Part shown: in pieces, positions 5,904 to 9,270 of the stretch
Layout of the letters: each line of letters begins with the position of its first letter
How positions within the stretch are numbered: the stretch's first letter is position 1
Assembly: GCF_016907475.1 (NCBI RefSeq)
Contig: NZ_JAFBCA010000001.1
Span: forward strand, 3,968,001-4,032,000
Origin: Nocardioides cavernae
GTDB taxonomy: Bacteria; Actinomycetota; Actinomycetes; Propionibacteriales; Nocardioidaceae
DNA length: 64,000 bases
Direction: 5' to 3'
Made by a program: the position numbers and the translations under genes
Notes under the pieces: generated by a model
Database searches by the model: none
What the model was told of the DNA's origin: nothing
What the model saw: the letters and a program-made list of their open reading frames with translations, nothing else

Positions 5904-6656
5904 TCAGCCGCGGGCCAGCTCGTCGAGCAGCATGCCGGCCACGGCATCGGTGGTCGGGAGCCCCTCGATCCACACCCGCACCAAGCCGTGCGGCTCGGTC
6001 CCGTCGAGGAGGGTGCGCAGCACCCGGACCCGCCGTCCGAGGTGGTCGTCGCGCCGGGTCAGGATCCCCACCCGGTGCATGCCGAGGCGTGCGACGGTCT
6101 CGTCGCGGGCGAACGCCGTGCGCGCCAGCTCGCCCGACCGCGCCACGCGCATCGCCCGGGTGAAGTGGTCGCCGGGCTCGTCGGACGGGTCGCCGCCGGA
6201 CGGCATCTCGAAGACGACGAGGGCGTAGCCCCCGATGCCGGCGTCCGTCCCGGCGCCGCCGAGGCGGTAGAGCTCCGAGAGCCGGCTGCGCAGGTGGGCC
6301 TGGCTGGACAGCCCGGTGAGCGGGTCCTCGCAGGAGAGCTGGTTGAGGTAGCCCAGCGTGGTCTCGCTCCACGCCGTGACCAGCGCCGTCACGACGTCGT
6401 ACGACGGATCGTCGCCGGTGACCCCCTGCCACGTGGCGCGCAGCCCGGCGAGCGTCTCCTCGACGGACGCCCCGTCGCGGGCCAGCTCCTGGCCCGCGAC
6501 GGAACAGACGTCGATGACGTCCGATCCTGAGGTGAGCGCTTCTCCGACAGCCTCGAACCGGTGCGGCAACCCCGACCGCTCGACGGTGGGCTCCGGCTCG
6601 CTCACCCCAGGATCGGCAGCCGCGAGTCGTCGCCCCAGCGTGGCGAAGATCTTCAC
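5904..6656 (-). CDS. Degenerate GGDEF-domain protein
   Basis: A 250-residue protein. The signature CEDPLTGLSSQAHLRSRLSEL near residue 115-135 matches the start of GGDEF (diguanylate cyclase) domains, DPLTGLxNRxxL, but no GG(D/E)EF loop follows; around that place the sequence reads VVFEMPSGGDPSDEP. It is therefore unlikely to make cyclic di-GMP and may be a sensor or structural relic of that fold. The first 110 residues are helical and unassigned. GTG at 6656 is chosen for the GGAGGGG ribosome site about 8 nt upstream. It is convergent with nothing and lies divergent to the large sigma gene. Confidence 0.65.
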   Translation of the reverse strand: MKIFATLGRRLAAADPGVSEPEPTVERSGLPHRFEAVGEALTSGSDVIDVCSVAGQELARDGASVEETLAGLRATWQGVTGDDPSYDVVTALVTAWSETTLGYLNQLSCEDPLTGLSSQAHLRSRLSELYRLGGAGTDAGIGGYALVVFEMPSGGDPSDEPGDHFTRAMRVARSGELARTAFARDETVARLGMHRVGILTRRDDHLGRRVRVLRTLLDGTEPHGLVRVWIEGLPTTDAVAGMLLDELARG

Positions 6657-6872
6657 GGCATACCCCCCTCCGGGTCCTCCGGTCATGAGCTGGTCGTGCC
6701 CAGCCCATGCTCTGTGAATGTGACGGTGCTCATGGCGACCCATGACGCGGACCAGACCGACGTTTCCGTTTCTTCACTTTCCGGGGCCGTCGATGCCCCT
6801 GCGGGATAGAGTCGGATGGCCCGACGACCGTCGGGTGAGGTTCCCGGAAGCGTCCAACATGAGCGTCGAACC

Positions 6873-8663
6873 ATGAGCGTGACCACCAGCGTCGAGGCGC
6901 CCAGCGACGCCGAGCTGATCTCGGCGGTGCGCGGCGGGGACCTCGATGCCTACGGCACGCTCTTCGAGCGCCACGTCGACGCGGCCCGTCGGCTCGCGCG
7001 CCAGCTCGTCCCCGCGGGGGACGCCGAGGACCTCGTCTCCGAGGCGTTCGTCAAGGTGCTGGCGGTGCTCCAGCGCGGCGGCGGCCCCGACCTCGCCTTC
7101 CGCGCCTACCTGCTGACCGCGGTGCGCCGGCTCCAGGTCGACCGCTTCCGGGCCGGGAGCCGGCTGCACACGACCGACGACATGGAGGCCTTCGACCCGG
7201 GCGTGCCGTTCCGCGACACGGTTGTCGAGGGCTTCGAGAGCGCCGCAGCCGCAGCCGCCTTCGCCAGCCTCCCCGAGCGCTGGCAGCTCGTGCTGTGGCA
7301 CACCGAGGTGGAGGGCGACAAGCCCGCCGACATCGCACCGATGCTCGGGATGAGCGCCAACTCGGTCTCCGCGCTCGCCTACCGCGCCCGCGAGGGACTC
7401 CGCCAGGCCTTCCTGACCCAGCACGCCGCGGAGCTCGACGAGGACACCTGCCGGTGGACCCACGGCCAGCTCGGGGCCTACGTCCGTGGCGCCTCGTCGC
7501 GCCGCGACGCGACCAAGGTGGAGCACCACCTCGACGAGTGCCGCTCGTGCATGGCGATCTACCTCGAGCTCACCGAGGTCAACTCCAACCTCGGCGCCCT
7601 CCTCGCCCCGCTCCTCCTCGGTGGCGTCGCGACCGCCTACGTCGGCTCCACCGCCGTCTCCGCCGTGGCGCCGGTCGGCATCGGAGTGGTGCTGGGCCGC
7701 GTCCGCGACCTGCTGACGGGCAACGCCGGTGTCGCCGCGGTCGCGGGGGTGGCGGTGAGCACCGTCGTCGTCGCCGGCGGGATCGCCCTCGGGCTGCGCG
7801 GCCCCACCACACCCACCGCCGCACCGACACGTGCTGCGACGTCGGACAGCTCGACCACGAGCGCCGGCGGGGATGCCTCCTCGATCACCGGCGACCGGTC
7901 GCCGAGGAGCCTGCGGCTCCGATCCGGTCCGCCGGCGCGCGTCCTTCCGCCCGGTGACGTCGACGTCACCCCCGGCTCCGTCCCCGCCACCGACACCACC
8001 CCGGGATCCGACTCCACGCAGGGCACCGACCCGACGCTCGACAGCGACGACACGCAGGGCACCGTCCCGGGCCAGACGCCGACGTCGAACCCGACCTCGA
8101 ACCCGACGTCCAACCCGACGTCCAACCCGACGTCCAACCCGACCTCGAACCCGACCTCGAACCCGACCTCGAACCCGACCTCGAACCCGACCTCGAACCC
8201 GACGTCGAATCCGACGTCGAATCCGACGTCCAACCCGACCTCGAACCCGACCTCGAACCCGACGACCAACCCGACGACCAACCCGACGACCAACCCCACG
8301 ACCAACCCCACGACCAACCCGACCCCCACCCAGGACCCGAGCCCGACGCCGCCGGCCGCCGACGCCTCGGTGTCCGGGACGGTCGGCGGGGCACGTCCGA
8401 CGTACACCGTGGTGGTGCGGGTGGCAGGTCTCGGCGGGACGACCGCCCAGCTGCGGATCGAGGGCATCGACGCAGAGGTCGTCCGCACCGCCGACGGTCG
8501 GTGCACCGCCGTCAAGACGGTCGCCACCTGCCAGGTCTCGGGCGACACGTCCGTCACCGTCGAGGTGGTCATCCCGCAGGGCGGCGCGGTGGTGGCGACG
8601 CTGACGCCACCCGGGAGCGACGCCGACAGCGGCAACAACACCTGGCGCGCGACCCTCGGCTGA
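6873..8663 (+). CDS. ECF sigma factor fused to zinc-finger anti-sigma segment, membrane helix and TSNP-repeat surface domain
   Basis: A 596-residue protein. Region 2 lies at about residues 12-90 ([18 protein letters not shown]) and region 4 at about 130-185 ([36 protein letters not shown]). A ZAS-like finger follows at about 200-232 ([17 protein letters not shown]), then hydrophobic stretches at about 238-300, of which [20 protein letters not shown] residues form the last helix. A Ser/Thr/Pro-rich linker, 20 tandem TSNP/TTNP units, and a final beta-rich domain of about 100 residues with one Cys pair would lie outside the cell. Sigma, anti-sigma and sensor thus appear joined in one chain. ATG 6873 is preferred over in-frame 6816. 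Confidence 0.85.
8082..8321 (+). repeat. Tandem 12-bp repeat, 20 units, encoding (TSNP)15(TTNP)5
   Basis: Twenty in-frame 12-bp units, mainly ACSTCSAACCCG and later ACGACCAACCCS, make a Pro/Thr/Asn stalk of 80 residues. Units differ only at synonymous sites or by Ser-to-Thr, so the tract arose by recent tandem duplication and probably varies in length between strains. Confidence 0.95.
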
Positions 8664-8726
8664 CCACCCGGCGCTCGGCCCGGGGCCGCACCCCTGTGGA
8701 CGGAGCGCCCTCCCCCGCGCATCGTG

Positions 8727-8732
8727 TAGACA
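8727..8732 (+). promoter_or_regulatory. -10 element TAGACA for the DoxX-like gene
   Basis: TAGACA ends 7 nt before the ATG at 8740 with no ribosome site, suggesting a leaderless mRNA. Confidence 0.45.
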
Positions 8733-8739
8733 GGGACGC

Positions 8740-9270
8740 ATGACGATCACCCGGTTGCTCGCACGTCCCATGCTGGCCACGATCTTCGTCGCCGGCGGCA
8801 TCAACGCCCTCCGCAACACCGAGGTTCACGCGGCGAAGGCGAAGAAGGTGACCGACAAGGTGGTGCCGGTCGCCCGGCAGGCGGTGCCCAAGGCCCCGAT
8901 CCCCACCGACCCGGCCACACTCGTCCGGATCAACGCCGGCGCCCAGATCCTGGCCGCCGCCGCCCTGGCCACCGGACGCGCTCCGCGTCTCAGCGCGACC
9001 GTGCTGGCGGCATCCCTCGTGCCCACGACCCTCGCCGGCCACGCCTTCTGGAACGAGAACGACCCCCAGACCAAGAACGCCCAGCGCCTGCAGTTCTACA
9101 AGAACACCTCAGTGTTCGGCGGCCTGCTCCTCGCCGCGGTCGACACCGAGGGCAAGCCCGGGCTGGCCTGGCGGGCCCGTCGCGCCGCCGCCGACGTGCG
9201 CCGCGAGGCCAAGCAGGTCGCCAAGGACGCCCGCCGCGAGGCAAAGCTCGCCAAGGCCCACCTGACCTGA
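8740..9270 (+). CDS. DoxX-family membrane protein with basic C-terminal tail
   Basis: A 176-residue protein of the DoxX family. The first segment [19 protein letters not shown] is the typical opening helix, followed by an amphipathic stretch and helices around residues 70-110 ([40 protein letters not shown]) and 125-140. The last 35 residues are charged and repetitive ([30 protein letters not shown] heptads), a probable coiled coil. DoxX proteins are linked to redox homeostasis at the membrane; the exact role here is unknown. It lies just upstream of aroA but has its own promoter-like box. Confidence 0.8.

Follow-up and report, generated by a model that had tools for sequence, protein, structure and literature searches.

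Several groups of actinobacterial ECF sigma factors, namely ECF48, ECF52 and ECF53, are described as carrying a fused zinc anti-sigma domain and one to two membrane helices (PMC8999054), and some members of ECF52 and ECF53 bear predicted glycosyl hydrolase or carbohydrate-binding domains (PMC10766802). In SCO4117 (ECF52), a sigma factor, a zinc finger, a membrane region, a proline-rich region and a carbohydrate-binding module are combined, and proteolytic release has been proposed; truncation data exist for ECF52 (PMC5826349; PMC8999054). The published promoter motif of SCO4117 is CSGYN-17bp-SRHA (PMC5826349). An anti-sigma domain is also fused behind the sigma factor in IutY of Pseudomonas putida (ECF243), which is activated by Prc and RseP and belongs to Gram-negative iron-starvation surface signaling; the passages on IutY in PMC8999054 mention no stalk, and the likeness is one of description. 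RslA and SigL of Mycobacterium tuberculosis (3hug), in contrast, are two separate proteins.

The present analysis concerns a window of 64,000 nucleotides, that is, the whole stretch of Nocardioides cavernae DNA that was analyzed, in which one gene at 6873..8663 (+) encodes a protein of 596 aa consisting of an ECF sigma factor, an anti-sigma domain, a hydrophobic segment, a stalk and an outer domain. The protein shares with SCO4117 a sigma factor, a zf-HC2 domain, a predicted membrane region, a proline-rich stretch and a terminal domain in one chain; with ECF48 and ECF53, likened by description, the fused zinc anti-sigma domain and, by prediction, the plan of one to two helices (PMC8999054); and with RslA/SigL the zinc anti-sigma domain, as judged by profile, and the fold of sigma region 4. 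An earlier note on this DNA had stated that ECF groups with fused anti-sigma regions are known in actinobacteria, which agrees with the descriptions of ECF48, ECF52 and ECF53; it had also singled out the stalk with its outer domain as the striking feature, a claim that does not hold, as this arrangement is already published for SCO4117 and ECF52 (PMC5826349; PMC8999054). The window protein is therefore a variant of an architecture already known from Streptomyces, and what is new is its Ig-like outer domain, its partner gene and its promoter signature. No Pfam match to a carbohydrate-binding module, such as the NPCBM domain of SCO4117, was found in the window protein, and for this reason it was not filed as ECF52.

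The outer domain is Ig-like, whereas that of SCO4117 is an NPCBM domain. L092, a Streptomyces protein built in the same way but distinct from SCO4117, shares 44% identity with the window protein over 285 head residues. Among the 77 rows of a quick tree, the Nocardioidaceae proteins form their own clade (SH-aLRT 97), separate from the two Streptomyces NPCBM proteins, SCO4117 itself being outside this comparison. The GNRACG-N15 motif described below is unlike CSGYN-17bp-SRHA and is absent from the 350 bases before L092 and L098, and the partner gene was not found in the 10-kb stretches around the two Streptomyces NPCBM genes (L215 and L216).

Our main reading, to which we give a probability of about 0.6, is that the protein is a membrane-tethered ECF sigma factor that would be self-inhibited until proteolysis frees its sigma head. 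The architecture, its conservation, the anti-sigma homology, the outer fold, the promoter signature and the co-occurrence of genes are results of computation.

Reading Frame and Sigma Domains

The open frame, which opens at 6816 or 6873 and closes at 8663, is uninterrupted over 6873-8663. Orthologs support the start at 6873: an ATG is found at the same place in 24 of the 27 read, and 19 of these 24 have a GGAAG-like site ahead of it. A frameshift between the sigma and membrane parts, one of two findings that the earlier note had named as speaking against its reading, was found neither in the window nor in the long relatives L010-L041; as the frame is intact and the long relatives share the architecture, a frameshift or pseudogene was rejected. 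Three database relatives (P0010, P0016 and P0025) lose the frame between the hydrophobic segment and the stalk, which may reflect errors or real variants.

At 6849-6895, a 14-bp tandem duplication creates a five-codon mini-frame (ATG...TGA), the stop of which overlaps the ATG of the sigma gene. The duplicated ATGAGCGT is present in the window and in L010, L011, L012, L014 and L015 and absent from the other 21 of the 27 sequences inspected; translational coupling of the mini-frame with the sigma gene is possible.

Sigma-70 region 2 lies at 6960..7163 (+; residues 30-97; Pfam Sigma70_r2, 3e-10) and region 4 at 7251..7394 (+; residues 127-174; Pfam Sigma70_r4_2, 1e-4). The latter match reaches 22.0 bits, below its Pfam cut-off of 25.7 bits, and region 4 was nevertheless accepted as real because residues 114-186 of the AlphaFold2 model of the head align with region 4 of SigL. 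The Pfam matches and this alignment bear out the presence of both regions as first noticed, and with sigma regions 2 and 4 only, the protein has the composition of an ECF (group 4) sigma factor. The block-mean pLDDT of the model is 74-96 over residues 11-90 and 121-240, which cover the sigma and zinc parts.

Anti-Sigma Domain and Predicted Membrane Segment

The zinc anti-sigma domain at 7440..7655 (+; residues 190-261) was delimited by a zf-HC2 match, a family profile and the helices of the model. Pfam zf-HC2 matches residues 193-226 (1e-7), and the H-x3-C-x2-C motif consists of H219, C223 and C226, with C193 as a fourth candidate ligand; the four residues show no variation across 48 aligned rows, in agreement with the HxxxCxxC zinc-finger segment of the earlier note. 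The 48-row family profile matches RslA (3hug_B), ChrR (2q1z_B) and RsrA (5frf_A) with E values of 0.0005-0.007, and RslA was matched again in a second profile search with the family profile. The model places helices at residues 191-204, 210-222, 224-238 and 240-261, the mean pLDDT being 60 at residues 241-250 and below 50 from residue 251. The domain thus combines the H-x3-C-x2-C motif, the helical structure and the homology to known anti-sigma domains of a class I ZAS domain, its fourth helix being of low confidence.

In class I anti-sigma domains, sigma region 4 is bound by helix 1, part of a bundle of helices 1-3, and sigma region 2 by helix 4, which follows a flexible linker (PMC7406223). 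Because the helix modeled at 240-261 corresponds to this layout, the hydrophobic stretch 240-258, which is conserved, is taken as a putative anti-sigma helix 4 rather than the membrane helix for which it could pass. With a pTM of 0.40, the head model does not reveal how the zinc domain packs on the sigma regions.

The hydropathy profile shows two hydrophobic stretches, at about 240-258 and at 286-308, the latter scoring best with a borderline hydrophobicity. The probable single membrane helix is placed at 7728..7796 (+; residues 286-308), with a GRVRD-like segment ahead of it. Since the pLDDT is below 50 at all but one of residues 251-326, it is the hydropathy that points to the membrane helix; the hydrophobic helices noticed earlier thus stand as two hydrophobic stretches, and the model neither confirms nor refutes that one of them spans the membrane. 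Positive charges number 1.95 per 15 residues before the helix and 1.42 per 20 after it, which is a slight excess.

If both stretches crossed the membrane, the stalk and the outer domain would be cytosolic. This topology is very unlikely, even if both stretches are hydrophobic and groups of the ECF48/52/53 type are reported with one to two helices (PMC8999054), because 240-261 coincides with the fourth anti-sigma helix and contains a near-invariant Pro, the intervening GRVRD-like segment would come to lie outside, and the Cys pair and adhesin-like fold of the outer domain argue for the opposite side. A single helix at 286-308, with the stalk and the outer domain outside, is the topology adopted here.

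Stalk and Outer Domain

The Thr/Pro/Ser/Asn-rich stalk occupies 7800..8363 (+; 188 residues, with borders set by eye) and matches the Pfam PT repeat at 0.003, below the cut-off. Within it, 8082..8321 (+; residues 404-483) holds 20 in-frame 12-bp units, 15 TSNP followed by 5 TTNP, and the earlier count of 20 TSNP/TTNP units is exact; TRF reports 20.4 copies of 12 bp with a score of 308. As the 12-bp unit preserves the frame, the gain or loss of units alone is unable to turn the gene off, and repeat slippage as a frame switch was ruled out. RsgI undergoes self-cleavage at Asn-Pro. Such cleavage is unlikely in this stalk, as the NP step is not conserved across the stalks of relatives (TPTP, TDSP and TSSP).

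The repeat unit varies among species, with TSNP, TGNP, TQDP, TPTP and TDSP observed. The distance from the helix to the outer Cys pair has a mean of 252 residues, a standard deviation of 59 and a range of 169-433 in 37 of 39 proteins, L042, which is cut by its contig, and L045, which has no outer Cys at all, being omitted; the length of the stalk is therefore only loosely conserved. Thr, Pro and Ser together make up 50-68% of the stalk region in L010, L018, L027, L035 and L036, and 25-38% in all five proteins read from the more distant L037-L045. Selection on the stalk may act on length and disorder rather than on sequence.

The outer beta-sandwich at 8364..8660 (+) carries the Cys pair C544/C553, as expected from the final beta-rich domain with one Cys pair described earlier. 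Its fold is Ig-like and adhesin-like, with DUF11/CARDB as the candidate type. C544 and C553 are invariant in the 29 aligned rows, from which L036, L038-L041, L043 and L045 were left out, and because a Cys pair suits the oxidizing outside, it was counted in favor of a surface location. Different outer domains are found on the same chassis, namely NPCBM in two Streptomyces proteins, a ricin lectin in L071, Big_6 in L056 and L067, Big_9/cadherin in L038 and, with matches under the Pfam cut-off, DUF11 in L046 and L048. The Ig-like outer domain could still bind glycan. L038, L041 and L043 end in a second Pro-rich stretch with the common terminus LTWKGFLxAIGL.

Proposed Release of the Sigma Head

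In the resting state, the anti-sigma domain would clamp the sigma regions of its own chain, and the protein would be held by the single membrane helix, with a disordered stalk spanning the wall and an Ig-like (CARDB/DUF11-type) tip on the predicted outer side. A surface change, whether a ligand or wall stress acting on the outer domain or the loss of this domain, would be the trigger for site-1 cleavage, followed by site-2 cleavage by a protease of the RseP/Rip1 type. The anti-sigma part would then be removed, and the free head would start transcription at GNRACG-N15-CATGACGCG promoters, that of its own gene first. The earlier note had proposed a search for a site-2-type protease motif near the helix. 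A site-2 protease of the RseP/M50 type is encoded in the genome, at G000:C1:2331121 (116 bits, below the TIGR00054 cut-off of 147.55); its presence is unspecific, since M50 matches were obtained in all 14 control genomes.

The earlier note fairly framed the alternatives as a sigma head that is cut free or one that acts while tethered. In the latter case, a pull on the outer domain would open the anti-sigma clamp without cleavage. The confidence of the model falls after residue 240, so that no rigid joint between head and membrane is indicated, and the long stalk would be able to transmit force, both of which are weak points in favor of tethered action. However, IutY, which is presented in PMC8999054 as the only experimentally characterized fused case, requires proteolysis, and a membrane-bound holoenzyme would have to reach its promoters. 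We consider tethered action unlikely and retain release by proteolysis as the preferred reading.

Distribution and Divergent Partner Gene

In a search against 5.8 billion proteins, 8000 candidates were scored, 3268 of them at E <= 0.001, and the best 120 of these 3268 were listed. With one genome scanned per species, 102 relatives were obtained, from which 80 loci were retained. Of the loci L010-L045, 36 in number, 34 belong to Nocardioides. Across the 59 genomes of this genus, 44 encode a protein related to the head (E <= 1e-50), and in 34 of these 44 it is a close ortholog, defined by at least 65% identity, the remainder being at most 49% identical; this cut was chosen after the values had been seen (jump from 65 to 49%). 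The one-chain architecture, described in the earlier note as a complete relay in one polypeptide, is thus real and conserved, with a close ortholog in 34 of the 59 genomes, and the 25 genomes without one include 10 that carry a diverged fused ECF.

Short forms of less than 300 aa without the membrane part make up 18 of the 80 fetched relatives, so that the tether is dispensable in some relatives; L042, L049 and L059 extend past the end of their contig or record. Among L069-L089 are short Streptomyces relatives without the membrane part, several of which keep the zinc-finger motif, and the Pseudonocardiaceae relatives L070, L074, L076 and L086 are cut down to about 190 aa. Paralogs of the fused ECF number four in G019, two in G061 and two in G054 (E <= 1e-50), and three in G005.

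The usual neighbors in L010-L045 are a sigR-like sigma gene, a hydrolase, an SRAP protein, the divergent partner, the fused sigma gene, a DoxX protein, aroA and rsgA, an order found in most loci with a long enough contig, DoxX and others being absent from some; SRAP and DoxX are Pfam matches, and the remaining names were given by eye. The divergent partner gene lies at 5904..6656 (-) and encodes a degenerate GGDEF-like protein of 250 aa; the feature list of the earlier note covered the fused sigma protein without this gene and without a promoter. The partner is present in 33 of the 34 close-ortholog genomes (absent from G010) and in 2 of the 25 others, and in these two, G019 and G061, a more diverged fused ECF is located no more than about 3 kb away. 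It is the divergent neighbor in all 35 loci L010-L044 and in L046, L047 and L049, and outside the genus it occurs near a fused ECF in L046, L047, L049, L090 and L091. It was not found at L045, L048 and L219, nor in the stretches fetched for L050-L089. Such a near-obligate partner suggests an input that is invisible in the architecture alone.

Where named, database entries for the partner are mostly hypothetical proteins, with few exceptions. The GGDEF signature is GG(D/E)EF. The partner gives PDB profile matches to GGDEF at 0.003, and Pfam GGDEF matches 4 of 19 members (best 9e-5); the window copy shows neither the signature in the alignment nor a Pfam match, and a relation to the GGDEF family is weakly suggested. 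No GGDEF partner for fused ECFs was found in the literature searched, the coverage of which is incomplete, and absence from print is not claimed.

It is possible, if doubtful, that the partner protein and not the outer domain gives the signal, which would be compatible with cleavage. A degenerate GGDEF-like cytosolic protein, possibly together with a nucleotide, would then bind either the sigma domain or the zinc domain, leaving the outer domain only the role of a wall anchor. The co-occurrence with close orthologs, the diverged fused ECFs near both exceptions, the constant divergent position and the GGDEF-type matches point in this direction, as does one motif copy that lies between both genes in G006 and is oriented towards the partner (counted among the 39 matches given below). 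However, gene linkage is no demonstration of contact, the window copy lacks the signature and the Pfam match, and the partner is missing from G010 and was not found near the Streptomyces NPCBM genes, L045 and L048. The alternatives discussed here are partly compatible with each other and with release by proteolysis. A more speculative and rather improbable proposal is a dual-input switch, formed by the fused sigma factor and its degenerate GGDEF-like partner, in which the outer domain and a sensor in the cytosol, perhaps linked to cyclic dinucleotides, would jointly govern a single membrane-tethered sigma factor that has a private promoter with a 15-base spacer and a small envelope regulon.

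Promoter Signature and Candidate Regulon

The candidate promoter GTGACG-N15-CATGACGCG at 6720..6749 (+) reads towards the sigma gene, 123 bases 5' of its ATG. In the aligned upstream regions of the window and L010-L047, the ATGACG box is present in 38 of 39, being missing from L045, and G..ACG-N15-.ATGACG in 32 of 39. The exact pattern GNRACG-N15-CATGACGCG, derived from the sites before the fused sigma gene itself, gave 65 matches, spread over 35 of the 59 Nocardioides genomes, and the reversed control gave 3; 22 of the 65 precede the fused sigma gene (66-399 bases from the matched stretch). The 43 other matches are divided into 39 in the 34 close-ortholog genomes and 4 in the 25 without (binomial P = 2e-6, kinship ignored), and a non-self site occurs in 23 of 34 genomes with a close ortholog against 4 of 25 without (Fisher P = 1.5e-4, kinship ignored).

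For spacers of 11 to 19 bases, the counts among the matches listed are 11, 1, 2, 7, 56, 4, 8, 8 and 5 in ortholog genomes (102 in total) and 8, 2, 7, 4, 4, 4, 6, 8 and 5 in other genomes (48 in total). The spacer of 15 alone is enriched, solely in close-ortholog genomes (56 of 102 against 4 of 48 among the matches listed); this peak serves as an internal control, in which sites before the gene and orthologous sites are counted repeatedly and kinship is ignored. The pattern is probably an autoregulatory promoter with a small regulon, and we infer that the fused sigma factor reads it. In 12 of the 34 ortholog genomes, the gene is not preceded by an exact site in this orientation, and a near match was seen in 4 of the 7 such loci read. 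No sigma-70 type promoter or terminator was found in 6600-8800, and the window gave no Rfam match at the gathering threshold and no tRNA. For ECFs with a fused anti-sigma domain, such a promoter signature would provide a direct reporter for targets and thereby a test of release by cleavage.

By hand counts, a relaxed pattern gave 64 matches against 4 for the control in 25 genomes of the genus, and no enrichment beyond it (17 against 20 in 14 genomes of the same order). The motif was not found in up to 350 bases upstream of 13 of 14 loci of other fused ECFs, taken from Streptomyces, Actinomadura, Actinokineospora, Kocuria, Microbacterium, a MAG and G061. Upstream of L083, a GGAAC-type alternative pattern is the sole match, and in L090, L049 and L217 the partner gene is present and the promoter motif absent.

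Of the 43 non-self sites, 41 were read, and after filtering, 19 of the 41 had no candidate gene downstream. The genes that recur downstream encode a membrane acyltransferase of family TIGR02206 (in 4 genomes), a small membrane protein of the PGPGW/TIGR02611 type (in 3), a glyoxalase-like protein (in 3) and a lipoprotein-like protein (in 2, with the start 290-417 bases away); a family search confirmed one TIGR02206 and two TIGR02611 copies, the latter below the cut-off, and the other names were given by eye. A relaxed or strict site was found at 5 of the 30 PGPGW loci read (L152-L181, the best-scoring of the 59 genomes), which by hand count amounts to 5 of the 16 close-ortholog genomes and 0 of the 14 others; the window's genome and G022 carry in addition a relaxed site, and G028 and G059 a strict one. 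The PGPGW genes were therefore rejected as a genus-wide target and would be targets in no more than some members of the genus.

In the window's genome, the relaxed pattern gave four sites (control 0), one before the fused sigma gene, one before the PGPGW gene and two directed at the 3' ends of adjacent genes. In the last two promoter-like sites, G000:C1:2028279-2028308 (-) and 493814-493843 (-), the adjacent gene is clpX and a PAS/ANTAR-type gene, respectively (names given by eye); these sites raise the question of whether an antisense or small RNA starts there. The site on the clpX side was observed again in G012 and G024, and G022 carries the identical 30 bases twice.
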